From Nonomuraea sp. (lineage in GTDB: Bacteria > Actinomycetota > Actinomycetes > Streptosporangiales > Streptosporangiaceae), in contig JABFVJ010000020.1 in assembly GCA_013362835.1 (NCBI GenBank), forward strand, positions 1-5,538: 5,538 nt of DNA. The letters are read 5' to 3'. A program made the translations under genes and the position numbers. Below the pieces are notes generated by a model, which saw only the letters and a program-made list of their open reading frames with translations, did not search any database and had not been told where the DNA came from. Positions 1-5,538 of the stretch are shown piece after piece (within the stretch, counting starts at the first letter, position 1; every line of letters starts with the position of its first letter).

Positions 1-1133
1 TCGCCCGGCTTGATCCACCCGCCGGACGCCTTGTAGACCAGCCGGCGCCAGCCCTTGGACGGCGCGTTACGCCTGCCGCGAAGCAGCGACTCGGGGTCGA
101 GGCTGTCGGCGGTCGGCCGGCCGCTGGCCGGCGGTCGCGCGGGCGCGGTGAACACGGGGATGGGCGCCGGACGCCGACGACGCTCGGGCGGCGGCGGGAT
201 CTCCCGCTCGGCCGGACGCCATTCCTGCCGCTCGCGGTGCGCGCCCTCCCTGGGCGGAGCCGCCTCGGCCTGGACGGGCGGCTCGTTCCGCACCGGCTGG
301 GCGGGCTCCGGCCACTGCGGAAGCCCCTCCCGGTAGGAGCTGTCGGACCACTGCGGCCGCTCGTCCCAGCGGGGCCGCTCCTCCTGCGGGGCCGGCTCGT
401 CCGCGACCGGCCTCTCCTCGGCCTCGGCCTCGGCGGGCGTGGCCTCAGCAGGCGCTGCCTCGGCGGGCGCCGGCCCGGTGCGGGGAGGCTCGGTGCGGGG
501 TGGCTCGGTGCGGGGAGGCTCGGTGCGGGGAGGCTCGGTGCGGGGAGGCTCGGTGCGGGGAGGCTCGGTGCGGGCGCTCTCGCCGAACGCCTTGGGCAGC
601 TCGGTGATCATCGGCTGGGTCTCGCCCGACGACTCCGCGGGCCGTGCCCACTCCGAGAGCGACGCCCACCCGGAATCGTCGGGCTCGCTCTTCTTCTCGC
701 TCTCCGCCTGCTCTGGCGGCGTGAACGACAACGAGTAGCTGTCGGTGTCGTCAGGCCGCGGCAGGGGCTTGAGCGGCGCCAGGAAGGGGTCGTCGGCCCT
801 CTCCAGGCTCACCGGGGGCGCGGGGGCCTCCTCGGCGCTCTCCTGGACGGTGGCCTTGTCCAGCCACTCCCCGGCCTCGCTCTCCTCCTCGGGAACCTGC
901 TCGGCCGCGGCGTGCCCGTAGACGGAGTCGACGGCGGCGCGGAACAGCGGCGGGGTCGGCGTGTCGTGCTGCGGGACGAGGAGCCAGGGGTCCTGGGGGT
1001 ACGGCGAAGCGACCGGCTCGTCGGCCGAAGCGGTCGAGGCGCTGACGGAGACCGGCGTCTCCTCCGTCTCCTTGATCGCGTCGAGCCAGGCCAGCTGTTC
1101 CTCGAGAGATTCTTCTCGATCGTGTCTTGCCAC
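1..1133 (-). CDS. EspI-like MinD/ParA-family ATPase, N-terminal disordered part (partial, runs off left edge)
   Basis: I translated this frame by hand: 377 codons from GTG at 1133 to the edge without a stop. GTG is the only possible start, because an in-frame TAG lies just upstream (1157-1155), and a GAGGGGG Shine-Dalgarno (1146-1140) sits 6 nt before it. The protein begins MARHDREESLEEQLAWLDAI and continues as acidic, Pro/Ala/Glu-rich, low-complexity sequence, with six RTEPP repeats (residues about 188-219) and no membrane segment. The last visible residues, about 359-377, read SKGWRRLVYKASGGWIKPG. In family knowledge, a GWRR...(hydrophobic)...G.I.PG(x)S block directly precedes the P-loop ATPase of EspI/MinD-like proteins linked to type VII secretion in mycobacteria and common in other actinomycetes. 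The ATPase domain itself lies outside the window, so ATP binding and any ESX role are inferred. An alternative is another disordered-tail MinD/ParA-like protein unrelated to ESX. Confidence 0.78.
   Translation of the reverse strand, partial: MARHDREESLEEQLAWLDAIKETEETPVSVSASTASADEPVASPYPQDPWLLVPQHDTPTPPLFRAAVDSVYGHAAAEQVPEEESEAGEWLDKATVQESAEEAPAPPVSLERADDPFLAPLKPLPRPDDTDSYSLSFTPPEQAESEKKSEPDDSGWASLSEWARPAESSGETQPMITELPKAFGESARTEPPRTEPPRTEPPRTEPPRTEPPRTEPPRTGPAPAEAAPAEATPAEAEAEERPVADEPAPQEERPRWDERPQWSDSSYREGLPQWPEPAQPVRNEPPVQAEAAPPREGAHRERQEWRPAEREIPPPPERRRRPAPIPVFTAPARPPASGRPTADSLDPESLLRGRRNAPSKGWRRLVYKASGGWIKPG
477..572 (-). repeat. 15-bp tandem repeat encoding (RTEPP)6
   Basis: Six in-phase 15-bp units, GGTGCGGGGAGGCTC on the plus strand, run from 477 to 566, with a partial seventh (GGTGCG) to 572. 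Only one base differs, in the second unit (TGG for AGG at 501), and it is synonymous (Pro). On the coding minus strand they give R-T-E-P-P repeated. Near identity at DNA level means recent slippage or unequal crossover, so copy number is probably variable between strains. The units lie wholly in the disordered linker of the EspI-like protein. Confidence 0.95.
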
Positions 1134-1247
1134 CGTGTTCCCCCTCGGGTGGGTCTAAAGGGGCAGCAAATACTTTGCAGATTAACGCCACGGGTCTCCG
1201 AGCAGGTCGGCAACCCACAACTTCTTTGCCCGGCTACCGTGGATCGC
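1134..1247. promoter_or_regulatory. Divergent promoter region between the EspI-like gene and the quinone oxidoreductase gene
   Basis: The two genes are head to head with 114 bp between them. For the minus-strand gene there is a clear Shine-Dalgarno, GAGGGGG (1146-1140), and a possible -10, TAATCT (minus strand, 1184-1179), without a convincing -35. For the plus-strand gene, TACCGT (1235-1240) fits the actinobacterial -10 TANNNT and ends 7 bp before the ATG. A small dyad, GCAAA-TAC-TTTGC (1166-1178), sits in the AT-richer middle and could be an operator. All promoter calls here come from pattern matching only. Confidence 0.45.
1235..1240 (+). promoter_or_regulatory. Candidate -10 element TACCGT giving a leaderless oxidoreductase mRNA
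   Basis: TACCGT fits TANNNT and ends 7 bp before the A of the ATG, so transcription would begin at or next to the start codon. No good Shine-Dalgarno precedes the ATG (only GGA at 1241-1243, 4 nt away). No good -35 is seen at 17-18 bp. Leaderless genes are common in actinomycetes, which makes this reasonable but unproven. Confidence 0.4.
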
Positions 1248-2204
1248 ATGCGAGCCATTGAGATCACCAAGCCGGGCGGACCAGAGGTCCTGGAGTGGCG
1301 GGAGGTGCCGGATCCGCAGGTCGAACGCGCGGACGTGCTCATCGACGTCACCGCCTCGGCGGTGAACCGCGCCGACGTCCATCAACGGCAGGGATTCTAC
1401 GATCCTCCCCCTGGAGCGCCCCCCTACCCGGGGCTGGAGGTGTCGGGCGTGGTGGCCGCGGTCGGGTCGGACGTCGAGCACTTCACGCCCGGCGACGAGG
1501 TCTGCGCGCTGCTCGGCGGCGGCGGTTACGCCGAGCGCGTGTCCGTGCCCTGGGAGCAGGTCATGCCGGCGCCCAAGGGGTTGCCGCTGGCCGAGGCCGC
1601 GGGGCTGCCCGAGGTCGCGTGCACGGTCTGGTCCAACGTGTTCATGCTCGCCCGCCTGCGCCGCGGCGAGACGCTGCTGGTGCACGGCGGGGCCAGCGGG
1701 ATCGGCACGTTCGCCGTGCAGCTCGCCAAGGCGCTGGGCTCCCGCGTCGTGGCGACGGTGGGGTCCGAGGCGAAGGCCGAGCAGGTCAGGAAGCTCGGCG
1801 CGGACGAGGTCGTCAACTACCGCGAGGAGGACTTCGCCGACAGGGTGGAGGCCGACGTGATCCTCGACATCATGGGCGCCAAATACCTGGACAAGAACGT
1901 ACGGGCGCTGCGCACCGGCGGCCGGCTCGTGGTCATCGGCCTCCAGGGCGGCCGTAAGGCGGAGCTCGACCTCGGCGCGCTGCTGACCAAGCGGGCCAGC
2001 GTCCACGCCACCGCGCTGCGCTCGCGTCCGGTGGACGAGAAGGGCGTCATCGTCCGCAGCGTCGTCGACAACGTGTGGCCCCTGGTGGAGGCCGGTGCCG
2101 TACGTCCGGTCGTGTACGCCGAGGTGCCCATGTCCCAGGCCGCCGATGCACACCGAATGTTGGATTCGGGGGAGCACGTCGGCAAGATCCTGCTAGTACG
2201 GTGA
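1248..2204 (+). CDS. NAD(P)H quinone oxidoreductase, PIG3-type zinc-free MDR family
   Basis: The 318-residue product is a medium-chain dehydrogenase/reductase of the quinone oxidoreductase/PIG3 (TP53I3-like) group, which is cytosolic and reduces quinones with NAD(P)H in one-electron steps in characterised members. The order is typical: GroES-like N-terminal half with N40-R41-A42-D43 and P61-G62-L63-E64-x-S-G, then the PEV...TVWSN segment (121-130), and the Rossmann nucleotide motif HGGASGIGTFAVQLAK (146-161). The Cys cluster of structural-zinc MDRs is absent, as expected. Length matches the family (about 320-330). I chose ATG 1248 because the family starts M-x-A-I; GTG 1239 is an in-frame alternative adding three residues. 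The same frame is open far upstream (from 237), but that is the antisense of the EspI-like gene. The stop codon overlaps the GTG 2201 that opens the bpa frame, so bpa is probably co-transcribed. The physiological substrate cannot be read from sequence. Confidence 0.93.
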   Translation: MRAIEITKPGGPEVLEWREVPDPQVERADVLIDVTASAVNRADVHQRQGFYDPPPGAPPYPGLEVSGVVAAVGSDVEHFTPGDEVCALLGGGGYAERVSVPWEQVMPAPKGLPLAEAAGLPEVACTVWSNVFMLARLRRGETLLVHGGASGIGTFAVQLAKALGSRVVATVGSEAKAEQVRKLGADEVVNYREEDFADRVEADVILDIMGAKYLDKNVRALRTGGRLVVIGLQGGRKAELDLGALLTKRASVHATALRSRPVDEKGVIVRSVVDNVWPLVEAGAVRPVVYAEVPMSQAADAHRMLDSGEHVGKILLVR

Positions 2205-2209
2205 GTGTT

Positions 2210-2722
2210 ATGAATGCTGAGGACAACAACACCCCTCACATCGTGGTGGTGGGCCCCGACTTCCAAGGTCAGGGCGATAGTGGCGAAGAAGAGCGCTCGG
2301 TCACCAACCTGGTCGAGCAGCCCGCCAAGGTGATGCGCATCGGCAGCATGATCAGGCAGCTCCTGGAGGAGGTCCGCGCGGCCCCGCTCGACGAGGCCAG
2401 CCGTAAGCGGTTGAAGGAGATCCACGAGTCCTCCATCAAGGAGCTCGAGGACGGTTTGGCGCCGGAGTTGGTCGACGAGCTGGAGCGGCTGTCGCTCCCG
2501 TTCACCGATGACAACGGCACGCCGCCCAGCGAGGCGGAGTTGCGCATCGCGCACGCCCAGCTGGTCGGCTGGCTGGAGGGCTTGTTCCACGGCATCCAGA
2601 CCACGCTGTTCGCCCAGCAGATGGCCGCCAGGGCCCAGCTGGAGCAGATGCGCAGGGCGCTGCCCGGTGTGCCGGGTGACGAGGCCCACCGTCCGCCGAG
2701 CGGGTCGGGGCCCTACCTGTAG
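2210..2722 (+). CDS. bpa: Bacterial proteasome activator Bpa (PafE)
   Basis: The 170-residue product matches the actinobacterial Bpa/PafE family (formerly DUF2587; Rv3780 in M. tuberculosis, 174 aa). Bpa forms a dodecameric ring that docks on the 20S proteasome and admits unfolded proteins without ATP; HspR is a known mycobacterial substrate. The variable acidic N-terminus (1-30) is followed by the family core: VEQPAKVMRIGSMIRQLLEE (35-54), APLDEASRKRLKEIHESS (58-75), ELEDGLAPELVDELERLSLP (78-97), and AELRIAHAQLVGWLEGLFHG (109-128) into FAQQMAARAQLEQMRRALP (134-152). These helices make the four-helix bundle. The extreme C-terminus is GSGPYL, the HbYX-like tail that enters the proteasome alpha-ring pockets; M. 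tuberculosis has GQYL. For ATG 2210, GGTGAG (2200-2205) can pair with the extended anti-Shine-Dalgarno. GTG 2201 (adds MSV) overlaps the preceding stop and is an equal alternative. Its presence implies that the organism has 20S proteasome genes elsewhere. Confidence 0.96.
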   Translation: MNAEDNNTPHIVVVGPDFQGQGDSGEEERSVTNLVEQPAKVMRIGSMIRQLLEEVRAAPLDEASRKRLKEIHESSIKELEDGLAPELVDELERLSLPFTDDNGTPPSEAELRIAHAQLVGWLEGLFHGIQTTLFAQQMAARAQLEQMRRALPGVPGDEAHRPPSGSGPYL

Positions 2723-3522
2723 TAGAGCCGCTCCAGCACCTGAGCGACGCCGTCCTCGTCGTTGCACGCGGTCACGTGGTCGACCGCGGCCAGCACGTCG
2801 GGGTGGGCGTTCGCGACGGCGTACGACGTGCCTGCCCAGCTCAGCATGGGCAGGTCGTTCGGCATGTCGCCGAATGCGATCACCTGCGCGGGCTTGATCC
2901 CGTGCCGTCCGGCGAGCGTGCCCAGGGCGGTGGCCTTCGTCACGCCCTGGGCGCTCATCTCGACCAGGCCGCCGTGGCTGGAGTGGGTGGCGGTCACCAG
3001 GTGGCCCACCAGCTCGTGCACGGCCGCGTGCAGCTCGTCCGCGCCCATGCCCGGGTGCAGGGCGAGCAGTTTGGCGCAGGGGCGGGCGGTCAGGGCGTCC
3101 CGGTCGATCCGGACGACTCCGACGCCCTTGCGATCCAGCCCACCGAGTCTGAAATCCGACTCATGCGCAAAACCGCCTTCATACTCGACCGAAAATACGA
3201 GATCGGACACGTTCGCTCTTAGCTGAGCGACGACTTCGGCCAGTACCTCGACGTCGATCAGGTGAGATTCAACTATCCGTTCGGTATGGAGGTCGTAGAT
3301 CAGCGCCCCGTTCGCGCAGATCGCCAGGCCACGGTGCCGCACGGCCCCCGCGACCCCGCTCATCCAGCGGGGCGGGCGTCCGGTGACGAACACGAGCATG
3401 GCACCGGCTTCCTCGACTTTCGCGAAGGCCGCGGCCGTCCGGGGAGACACGGTTCCGTCGGCACGCAAGGCGGTGCCGTCGAGGTCGGTGGCCACTAGGC
3501 GCGGCGCGGGAAGGCTCTGCAT
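2713..3522 (-). CDS. Cof-type HAD-IIB family phosphatase
   Basis: The 269-residue product is a HAD-superfamily hydrolase of the Cof/YbiV-like IIB type; these cytosolic Mg2+-dependent enzymes dephosphorylate sugar phosphates, nucleotides or cofactors such as PLP. All four motifs are present: I, DLDGT (D13 nucleophile, D15 acid/base); II, VTGRP (T47); III, K196 in GVTKATAL; IV, GDMPNDLPM (218-226). The C2B cap lies between motifs II and III, and NGALIYD (71-77) is typical. Length fits the family. ATG 3522 has only a weak ribosome site (GGAA, 6 nt upstream). The 3' end overlaps bpa by 10 bp tail to tail. The cap segment at residues about 80-126 is unusually AT-rich with a cluster of rare codons (CTA, AGA, ATA, GTA, TTT). 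The substrate cannot be assigned; HAD-IIB enzymes are often promiscuous. Confidence 0.93.
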   Translation of the reverse strand: MQSLPAPRLVATDLDGTALRADGTVSPRTAAAFAKVEEAGAMLVFVTGRPPRWMSGVAGAVRHRGLAICANGALIYDLHTERIVESHLIDVEVLAEVVAQLRANVSDLVFSVEYEGGFAHESDFRLGGLDRKGVGVVRIDRDALTARPCAKLLALHPGMGADELHAAVHELVGHLVTATHSSHGGLVEMSAQGVTKATALGTLAGRHGIKPAQVIAFGDMPNDLPMLSWAGTSYAVANAHPDVLAAVDHVTACNDEDGVAQVLERLYYR

Positions 3523-3745
3523 AACACGTTCCAGTTTGCCCGGTGATGCCGCCTGACAGAAATCTTCGTTGGGACGGGAACACCAACGCGCCAGAATGGT
3601 GTTAGATGTGATGGCGTTGTATTAGCTGATCCCGTAGTGAAAACCAGCATGACTTTGTCTGAGCCACCCCGGGTGCTTGCTGTACGACACACCGGGACCC
3701 ACGAGGTGTGGGTCCCATAGATTCACATCCTGAGGGAGAGCTTTT
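3523..3745. promoter_or_regulatory. Divergent intergenic region: promoters of the HAD gene and the cold-shock gene, with long csp leader
   Basis: No ORF here looks real. Toward the cold-shock gene, TTGGGA (3569-3574) and CAGAAT (3592-3597), 17 bp apart, are a fair sigma-70-type pair. GGGAAC (3576-3581) with GTT at 3601-3603 vaguely resembles an ECF/SigR promoter, but the 19-bp gap is slightly long. If either is right, the csp mRNA has a leader of about 140 nt holding a stem-loop at 3694-3716. GAGGGAGAG (3732-3740) is a strong ribosome site 5 nt before the csp ATG. No convincing promoter for the HAD gene was found. Confidence 0.4.
3694..3716 (+). promoter_or_regulatory. Perfect stem-loop in the cold-shock gene leader
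   Basis: GGGACCCAC (3694-3702) and GTGGGTCCC (3708-3716) form a perfect 9-bp stem with the 5-nt loop GAGGT. It ends 15 nt before the Shine-Dalgarno and 29 nt before the ATG. No U-tract follows, so it is not a standard intrinsic terminator. It could be an mRNA stability or translation-control element, or a protein operator in DNA. The structure is read directly; its role is inference. Confidence 0.6.
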
Positions 3746-3949
3746 ATGGCTCAGGGAACCGTCAAGTGGTTCAACGCCGAGAAGGGCTTCGGCTTCATCG
3801 CCCCGGACGGCGGTGCGCCGGACGTGTTCGTGCACTTCTCCGAGATCGTCGGCAACGGCTACCGCAGCCTTGAAGACGGCCAGCGGGTCGAGTTCGAGAT
3901 CACGCAGGGACAGAAGGGGCCGCAGGCCTCCCAGGTCCGTGCCCTCTGA
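3746..3949 (+). CDS. CspA-family cold-shock protein (single CSD)
   Basis: The 67-residue product is a single cold-shock domain, a five-stranded OB-fold that binds single-stranded RNA/DNA and acts as RNA chaperone or antiterminator in the cytoplasm. It begins [21 protein letters not shown]1 is KGFGFI (13-18) and RNP2 is VFVHF (27-31), with the aromatic residues W8, F15, F17, F28, H30 and F31 in place. It ends on the family's usual basic/polar tail, and length is typical (65-70). ATG 3746 is preceded by GAGGGAGAG (3732-3740) at 5 nt spacing. The gene appears monocistronic: it has a long structured leader and a strong terminator 24 bp after its stop. Whether it is cold-induced or constitutive cannot be told; actinomycetes usually carry several copies. 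Confidence 0.97.
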
Positions 3950-3972
3950 CCTGTAGTTCGTAGTTCGCAAGT

Positions 3973-4011
3973 AAGACCGGGGTCCGCATTCCAGCGGACT
4001 CCGGTCTTTTT
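3973..4011 (+). terminator. Rho-independent terminator of the cold-shock gene, between convergent genes
   Basis: AAGACCGGGGTCCGC (3973-3987) pairs with GCGGACTCCGGTCTT (3994-4008) to make a 15-bp stem with one G-U wobble and a 6-nt loop (ATTCCA). The run TTTTT (4007-4011) follows the stem. This is a textbook intrinsic terminator for the plus strand. It ends 5 bp before the stop codon of the convergent ilvC gene, so the same hairpin lies just after that gene too; in that direction only CTTACTT follows, a poor U-tract. Confidence 0.93.
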
Positions 4012-4016
4012 GCTTC

Positions 4017-5471
4017 TCAGGCCACGTGGATGTCCACGGAAGGCCGCAGCCGGGCCGCCGCTGCCAGCGCCTCGTGCACCGGGTGCCCGGTGAAGGCGTC
4101 CGCCCCCTGACCGGGCTTGGCGGGGAAGGCGAGCTGCTCGTAGGCCGCCTGGAACCGCGGCCCCCAGCGCCGGGCCCCGAGCCGGGCCGTACGCGAGCAG
4201 TTGTCCACCATGTACGCCACGTCCCGCGCGTGCATGTACGGCAGCAGCGAGTCCACCGCCTCGATCACCGACTCGTTGACGATCTCCGACCACCGGTGTC
4301 CGCGCTCGGCGAACTCGTCCACCTGCGCCATCATCGTGGCCACGAACATCCCGGCGGTGTACGGCTCGACCGGCAGCTCCCGCTCGCCCCGCCTGGCCCG
4401 TACGGCCTCGCCCGCCGCCCACATGGCCGAGCCGCCGATCTCGCTCATCGGCCGGGCGGCGAGGCGGCGTTCGGCGAGGATCACGCTGCGCAGCTCGGTG
4501 CCGTCGGCGACCTCGTCGTAGATCTCGGCCACCAGGTCGCGGGCCGGGCCGTAGGCGGCCTCGTAGGCGCGGTCGAAGGTGTCGCGGCCGGCCGGGTCCA
4601 GGCGTTCGCGGACCGCGCGCAGGCCGTGTGCGGAGATGGTGCGGGCGATGGGGCCGGTGACGTTCTCGCAGGAGCGCTCGTACGCGGTGACCGGGTCGTC
4701 CCCATCGAGCCGGTAATGGCCGTAGAGGGCCTCCACAAGGCCGTGGACGGCCCCCAGCAGGATCGCCCGCTCTCCCACCACGTCCGACAGGTATTCGCTC
4801 TCCAGCGTCGTCTGGAACGTGTACGGCGACCCGAGCGCCACCGACCAGGCGAGCGCGCGGTCGACCGCCCGGCCGTCGGGGTCGGCGTACACGGCGAAGC
4901 TACTGTTGATGCCCGCGCCGTTGATCTCGGCGCCCTGCTCGTACAGGCGGCGGACGGAGTCGCCCATGCCCTTGGGGCAGACCGCGACGACGCCGTGGCC
5001 TTCGGGGAAGGAGCCGCCGGTGGCGCGCAGGTGGCCGAGCAGGAAGCCGTGCTAGAGGCCGATGGTGGCGCCGGGGCGCAGGGCGGCGAAGATCTCCTGG
5101 TGGTGCGCGGCCAGGGCGGCGTCCGCGATGAGCAGGATGACCAGGTCGTTCTCCGCGACCACGTCGAGCCAGTCGCCGAGGGTGCCGTCCCGTTCGGTGA
5201 AGCCGTGGGCGCGGGCGTCGGCGGCCGAGGCCGAGCCGGGCCGCAGCCCGACGCTGACGCGGATGCCGGTGCCGGCCAGGGAGTCGCGCAGGTTGCGGCT
5301 CTGCGCGCGGGCCTGCGGCCCCCAGCCGATGACCCCGATCCCGCGCACGCCCGCGAAGGCGGCGGGCAGCAGCGGGAACAGGTGCCTGCCGCCGCGCAGG
5401 ATCGTCTCCGTGCCGCCGGGGACGTCCATCGTCTCGGTCGCGAACACCGCGGAGGTGAAGGAATCGCTCAT
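4017..5471 (-). pseudogene. ilvC: Plant-type (class II) ketol-acid reductoisomerase interrupted by one in-frame TAG
   Basis: Ketol-acid reductoisomerase converts acetolactate or acetohydroxybutyrate to the dihydroxy acid with NADPH and Mg2+ in valine, leucine and isoleucine synthesis. The frame has 484 codons from ATG 5471 to TGA 4019-4017, interrupted once by TAG at 5054-5052 (codon 140). Codons 1-139 hold the RGGR.LF.LLP.AF lead-in and the NADPH Rossmann motif GVIGWGPQARAQ (46-57). Codons 141-484 resemble plant KARI closely (CPKGMGDSVRRLYEQGAEIN, GAGINSSFAV). Residues matching the spinach active site are all kept: H141, K167, D230, E234, E400, E404 and S426. The family motif is GLSHGF; here it reads GL-stop-HGF, so TCG to TAG (one base) explains the break. 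There is no other frame damage. The first ATG after the stop is codon 169, without a ribosome site, so a split two-protein gene is unlikely. This is a very recent pseudogene, a sequence error, or a read-through gene. No Shine-Dalgarno precedes the ATG; the start looks leaderless. Confidence 0.88.
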
Positions 5472-5478
5472 GGTTGGA

Positions 5479-5508
5479 GTTGTAGGCTCAGCGGGGACGT
5501 TGCGACAA
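5479..5508 (-). promoter_or_regulatory. Candidate promoter of ilvC giving a leaderless transcript
   Basis: On the minus strand, TTGTCG (5508-5503) and TACAAC (5484-5479) are 18 bp apart and resemble the TTGACA/TATAAT pair. The -10 ends 7 nt before the A of the ATG at 5471, placing the transcription start on or beside the start codon. The bases just before the ATG (CTCCAACC) have no Shine-Dalgarno, which supports leaderless translation. Confidence 0.55.
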
Positions 5509-5515
5509 GCGCAAC
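5499..5515. promoter_or_regulatory. Inverted repeat GTTGCG-N5-CGCAAC over the ilvC -35
   Basis: GTTGCG (5499-5504) and CGCAAC (5510-5515) form a perfect 6-bp dyad with a 5-bp spacer, and the candidate -35 (5503-5508) lies inside it. A further half-site, GTTGCGA, occurs at 5530-5536, matching 5499-5505. The arrangement is what a repressor operator would look like. I do not recognise the regulator; it may be encoded beyond the right edge. Confidence 0.5.
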
Positions 5516-5538
5516 ATCCGGTCCGGGCCGTTGCGAAT

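Follow-up and report, generated by a model that had tools for sequence, protein, structure and literature searches.

Organization of the window

The window analysed in this work is a stretch of 5,538 nucleotides from Nonomuraea sp., a soil actinomycete, and its genes and the features referred to below are listed here in window coordinates.

3-1133, minus strand: unnamed repeat protein (proline/arginine/glutamate repeats), incomplete, crossing the window edge
1248-2204, plus strand: PIG3-type quinone oxidoreductase (qor)
about 2210-2722, plus strand: bacterial proteasome activator (BPA, gene bpa; PF10759)
2713-3522, minus strand: Cof-type HAD hydrolase (had)
2713-2715, minus strand: TAG, terminal stop of the HAD hydrolase gene
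2720-2722, plus strand: TAG, terminal stop of the BPA gene
3746-3949, plus strand: cold-shock protein
4017-5471, minus strand: interrupted plant-type (class II) ketol-acid reductoisomerase (KARI, ilvC), open except at codon 140
4017-4967, minus strand: frame from the first ATG downstream of the interruption (316 amino acids), starting at codon 169, the Met of the conserved motif CPKGMG
4020-5051, minus strand: 344-codon remainder with the rest of the KARI_N domain (profile 107-161) and KARI_C in two stretches
5052-5054, minus strand: in-frame TAG, codon 140 of ilvC, at the Ser of GLSHGF
5055-5471, minus strand: N-terminal piece of 139 residues, an incomplete NADPH-binding domain (KARI_N profile 6-91 of 165)
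5500-5514, minus strand: IlvY-like operator TTGC-N7-GCAA

The closest genome found was that of Nonomuraea spiralis, which aligns with the window from 705 to 5537 as one collinear block of 90.6% DNA identity and has the same neighbourhood around ilvC. The alignment is fragmented within gene 3-1133, where PPRTE-coding repeats occur at 478-570 (minus strand) and the repeat number may vary. The BPA and HAD hydrolase genes are convergent with overlapping ends (2713-2725), and BPA terminates in a tandem TAGTAG. On the strand antisense to ilvC the window is open from 4026 to 5537 (plus strand, 504 codons; the corresponding N. spiralis frame has 520 codons), which is probably an effect of codon usage at high G+C content. 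A plasmid origin of the window was considered and rejected: no record contained 80% of it, and the longest match (59% coverage, 87.8% identity) was to a record of N. gerenzanensis that, though labelled a plasmid, is of chromosomal size (11.85 Mb) and hence taken to be the chromosome.

The interrupted gene encodes a plant-type ketol-acid reductoisomerase

The ilvC frame starts with the ATG at 5471, runs for 139 codons to the TAG, and continues for 344 sense codons to a TGA at 4017-4019. No other stop and no frameshift was found in the frame between 5471 and 4017, which confirms the claim of an earlier sequence-only reading of this DNA that the frame is broken by the TAG at codon 140 alone. The TAG is also the only lesion seen in the genes of the window, gene 3-1133 being judged only in part as it runs off the end. 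The frame of 484 codons is not a product of chance, since its translation is about 92-93% identical over the full length to an intact orthologue in N. spiralis (protein P0001, locus L001).

With the stop read as X, the best matches among solved structures were the KARI enzymes of rice (3fr7) and spinach (1qmg), covering residues 4-483 with E values of about 1e-163 to 1e-164, and the label plant-type given to the gene before any comparison was therefore well chosen. Of the properties that define a class II KARI, the gene has full-length similarity to the plant enzymes and both domains, KARI_N and KARI_C, but not an uninterrupted protein. Alignment with the rice and spinach enzymes showed that H141, K167, D230, E234, E400, E404 and S426, which we take from the KARI literature to be the catalytic residues, are all kept, so that the catalytic His indeed follows the stop directly and the remaining catalytic positions survive, as had been proposed. 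The NCBIfam ilvC equivalog model TIGR00465 (cut-off 226.15) gave 40.9 and 123.9 bits for the two pieces, both below the cut-off; the intact plant-type protein of N. spiralis also scored below it (180.6), and the class I protein of the same species reached 416.5. The model seems to exclude plant-type forms.

The sequence-only reading had placed the break between an N-terminal Rossmann half and a helical C-terminal domain. This has to be corrected: both pieces match KARI_N (PF07991), the first with its residues 44-137 (profile positions 6-91) and the second with its residues 16-75 (positions 107-161), and the stop thus cuts the NADPH-binding Rossmann domain itself. At the ATG of codon 169, the first that could restart translation downstream, the sole purine-rich stretch (AAGGG) nearly abuts the start codon, in our judgement too near for a normal ribosome-binding site.

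The stop codon is private to the window

Plant-type loci were fetched from the species genomes of 75 relatives, and 71 of them reach codon 140; the other four (L070, L071, L073 and L074) contain only the C-terminal part of the gene. All 71 encode Ser at this codon (TCG in 51, TCC in 18, TCA in 2) and none has TAG. The stop is therefore private to the window, and an old, common stop is ruled out. The proposal that the family has Ser here and that one change, TCG to TAG, separates the two was borne out by this alignment with the ilvC genes of relatives: N. spiralis has TCG, one base away from TAG. The 18 TCC copies are two bases away, and TCA would yield TAA.

The truncated proteins that were aligned did not repeat the lesion. 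Of the 490 short homologues found, 120 were listed, and 13 of these 120 were aligned with the gene. Six of the 13 (P0121-P0125 and P0127) read Ser-His across the site, seven (P0126, P0129, P0141, P0149, P0151, P0188 and P0210) stop or change earlier, and none ends at residue 139; P0141, which comes from a metagenome-assembled genome, is near-identical to the window (86 amino acids, 99%), but it terminates ahead of codon 140. No protein identical to the 344-residue piece was present in the best 120 of 4954 matches.

Two properties of the change proved to carry no message. In the ilvC gene of N. spiralis a single base change could create a stop at 82 codons, 16 of which are TCG, and for 31 of the 82 the alignment column is conserved to 99% or more. 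A random nonsense mutation would thus strike a conserved position in about 38% of cases; the position of the stop is not special. The class of mutation, which resembles oxidative damage (G>T), is likewise uninformative, as 20 of the 154 changes on the window branch are G:C>T:A, the one at codon 140 included.

Constraint on ilvC and age of the lesion

Compared with N. spiralis, the dN/dS of ilvC is 0.179 before the stop and 0.155 after it. The neighbouring genes gave 0.202 (qor), 0.038 (bpa) and 0.109 (had); the value of 0.336 for gene 3-1133 is unreliable, the gene being incomplete and repeat-bearing. When the changes in ilvC were assigned to branches with N. thailandensis as the reference (22 ambiguous sites were dropped), the ratio of non-synonymous to synonymous changes was 15:28 on the window branch and 13:36 on the N. 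spiralis branch, which is not a significant difference (Fisher P = 0.50) and gives no sign of relaxed constraint, although a recent event would escape such a comparison. In a simple Poisson model, in which the N. spiralis ratio was taken as the constrained state, a window branch that had evolved neutrally for 20% of its length would show 15 or fewer non-synonymous changes with a probability of 0.04, and one that had done so for 30% with a probability of 0.0015. Judging from these substitution patterns, the ilvC lineage of the window was constrained until recently. The stop is either recent or not real.

Putative regulatory sequences upstream of ilvC

In N. spiralis a LysR-type gene is divergent from ilvC, and its top NCBIfam match is IlvY with 241.2 bits, under the cut-off of 246. 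Such an IlvY-type divergent neighbour was found in 56 of the 75 relatives' loci, N. spiralis included; the window ends short of where such a gene would begin. In 60 of the 75 loci the palindrome TTGC-N7-GCAA occurs no more than 160 bases ahead of ilvC, and all 945 kb of these loci contain 62 such sites in total. A perfect operator is absent from N. thailandensis (L014) and from four other regulator-bearing loci. The operator of N. spiralis differs from that of the window by a single spacer base. Because the window keeps the operator at 5500-5514, an apparently intact regulatory switch precedes a broken gene.

Eight Kribbella loci (L044, L045, L046, L048, L049, L050, L061 and L068) have an operator-like palindrome about 30 bases before ilvC, and a divergent IlvY neighbour was not detected at these eight loci. 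A -10-like box, TACAAC (5479-5484), stands just ahead of the ilvC ATG of the window and is found also in N. spiralis, N. thailandensis and L003; it is missing in L034. No clear Shine-Dalgarno sequence was found ahead of the ATG (5472-5538). From this arrangement, the ilvC mRNA may have next to no leader, and the IlvY-like operator would then occupy the -35 region.

Plant-type ilvC is a patchily distributed gene

The N. spiralis genome has, in succession, the end of the acetolactate synthase large-subunit gene (ilvB), the small-subunit gene (ilvN) and a class I ilvC. We surveyed 59 genomes, namely N. spiralis and 58 presented as its relatives, their kinship being unstated and some of them being small. 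A KARI_C match of at least 200 bits, class I-like by score, was present in 57 of the 59; the exceptions were G046 (no match) and G054 (70.7 bits). A full-length plant-type KARI was found in N. spiralis and in one of the 58 others (G024), both carriers being among the 57. This count leaves out G042 and G056, whose matches are weak (33-35% over a portion of the protein). Further Nonomuraea copies of the plant-type enzyme are present in the protein collection (P0002, P0058, P0100, P0108 and P0115), and since the enzyme is not rare in the genus it may benefit its carriers.

An empty site of the ilvY-ilvC cassette was located in N. gerenzanensis (L083:11370-11508), where the flanks are collinear and about 140 bases replace the 2.5 kb that carry ilvC and its regulator in N. 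spiralis; this applies to this locus only. Six of the 75 plant-type loci, from Pseudonocardia and Streptomyces, are broken up (L047, L054, L070, L071, L073 and L074), although sequencing faults may account for some of these and L073 and L074 are distant (57%). Their fragments point to a frameshift, an inserted sequence or a missing N-terminal part. The patchy presence, the empty site in N. gerenzanensis and the six broken loci together indicate that the plant-type gene is accessory and has probably been lost repeatedly.

A search for literature on Nonomuraea together with ketol-acid reductoisomerase found none, and none of the papers listed for Streptomyces together with KARI of plant type or class II dealt with an actinomycete plant-type KARI, as far as titles and the beginnings of abstracts tell.

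Discussion

The locus is best read as a recently inactivated nonsense allele of a dispensable accessory plant-type KARI gene, a reading to which we assign a probability of roughly 0.6. On the coding strand, one C-to-A substitution would have converted the conserved Ser codon 140 to TAG. Translation would then break off at residue 139, within the NADPH-binding Rossmann domain and immediately ahead of the catalytic His, so that neither piece is likely to be a working enzyme. The loss would be tolerated because the housekeeping class I enzyme, encoded beside ilvB and ilvN, catalyses the same reaction. This presupposes a real base, the lack of any useful product, a class I copy in this organism as well and an identical reaction of the two enzymes, as we infer. 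The private stop, the otherwise open frame, the low dN/dS on both sides of it and the kept operator agree with the sequence-only reading where it had considered a nonsense mutation of very recent origin or an error of base-calling; a mutation that is recent and tolerated, or else such an error, is most likely, rather than a new kind of decoding.

The main rival to the nonsense allele is that the gene is intact and the TAG an error of base-calling or consensus, which we consider about half as probable. The TAG is the only lesion seen in the window's genes (with gene 3-1133 judged in part), a single base separates it from the TCG found in N. spiralis and in 50 more relatives, and constraint is alike on either side of it. 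A real stop, on the other hand, would be easily tolerated, given the apparent redundancy of the gene in N. spiralis and its absence from the N. gerenzanensis locus. Substitution errors are rarer in modern consensus sequences. The available part of Deshayes et al. 2007 (PMC1852416) reports that 28 of 73 resequenced interrupted genes of M. smegmatis were sequencing errors, a rate that lends weight to this rival but stems from an older genome sequence; the window gene resembles those cases in having a single lesion in a gene otherwise intact, but those cases were resequenced.

That the TAG is decoded, by leaky termination or by a suppressor tRNA, with some full-length enzyme being made, seems improbable. 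The downstream dN/dS of 0.155 is a signature of the type used by Belinky et al. 2021 (PMC7918605) and is equally expected from a decoded stop, but a fresh mutation predicts the same value. As set out in the available text of that study, readthrough was argued from in-frame stops common to orthologues; the candidates there share with the window an in-frame TAG and low downstream dN/dS, but the stop of the window is found in 0 of 71 orthologues. The stop is followed by CACGGC, and in an E. coli screen (PMC11126739, in its accessible part) a G-rich, T-poor downstream context increased readthrough, so that a little leakage may occur here. The same screen ranked readthrough TGA > TAG > TAA, so TAG is not the leakiest stop, and the suggestion that a leaky UAG might be decoded here found no specific support. 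Moreover, the window and N. spiralis alike have TAG as the terminal stop of the neighbouring BPA and HAD hydrolase genes, and these controls for the function of TAG speak against decoding and rule out a reassignment of UAG. Were a near-cognate or suppressor tRNA to read the private TAG some of the time, the spare KARI would be retained as a low-output enzyme set by termination efficiency in a strain otherwise relying on class I IlvC, a notion still a little less credible than decoding as such. Least probable of all is a functional split gene whose halves are made separately and then assemble. An ATG-started frame of 316 codons does exist downstream, but the cut falls inside the Rossmann domain, the ATG encodes the Met of CPKGMG, lies 29 codons beyond the stop and lacks a ribosome-binding site at the usual spacing, the product would miss H141 and K167, and none of the 71 relatives is split at codon 140.

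The recently inactivated gene can be set beside known systems. It matches the KARI enzymes of rice and spinach over the full length and at the catalytic positions, but it is bacterial, accessory and interrupted at codon 140. Its N. spiralis counterpart, alike in sequence (93% identity), neighbourhood and type of operator, differs in having Ser (TCG) in place of the TAG. The arrangement recalls ilvY-ilvC of E. coli, described in the accessible portion of PMC5002191, in the divergent LysR-type gene (in the relatives) and in the spacing of TTGC-N7-GCAA, as in O1; the structural gene of the actinomycetes, in contrast, is a plant-type KARI, and the regulator lies outside the window.

Whether nonsense allele or base-call error, the interruption itself is ordinary, and its meaning is mostly one of annotation hygiene: the locus holds one interrupted plant-type KARI, not two genes. 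It also brings into view the accessory actinomycete ilvY-ilvC cassette, which N. spiralis has alongside its housekeeping ilvB-ilvN-ilvC cluster and which N. gerenzanensis lacks in its entirety at this locus. Should the stop prove real, the strain would be fresh from losing a spare enzyme and could serve as a natural control in studies of the purpose of that enzyme.
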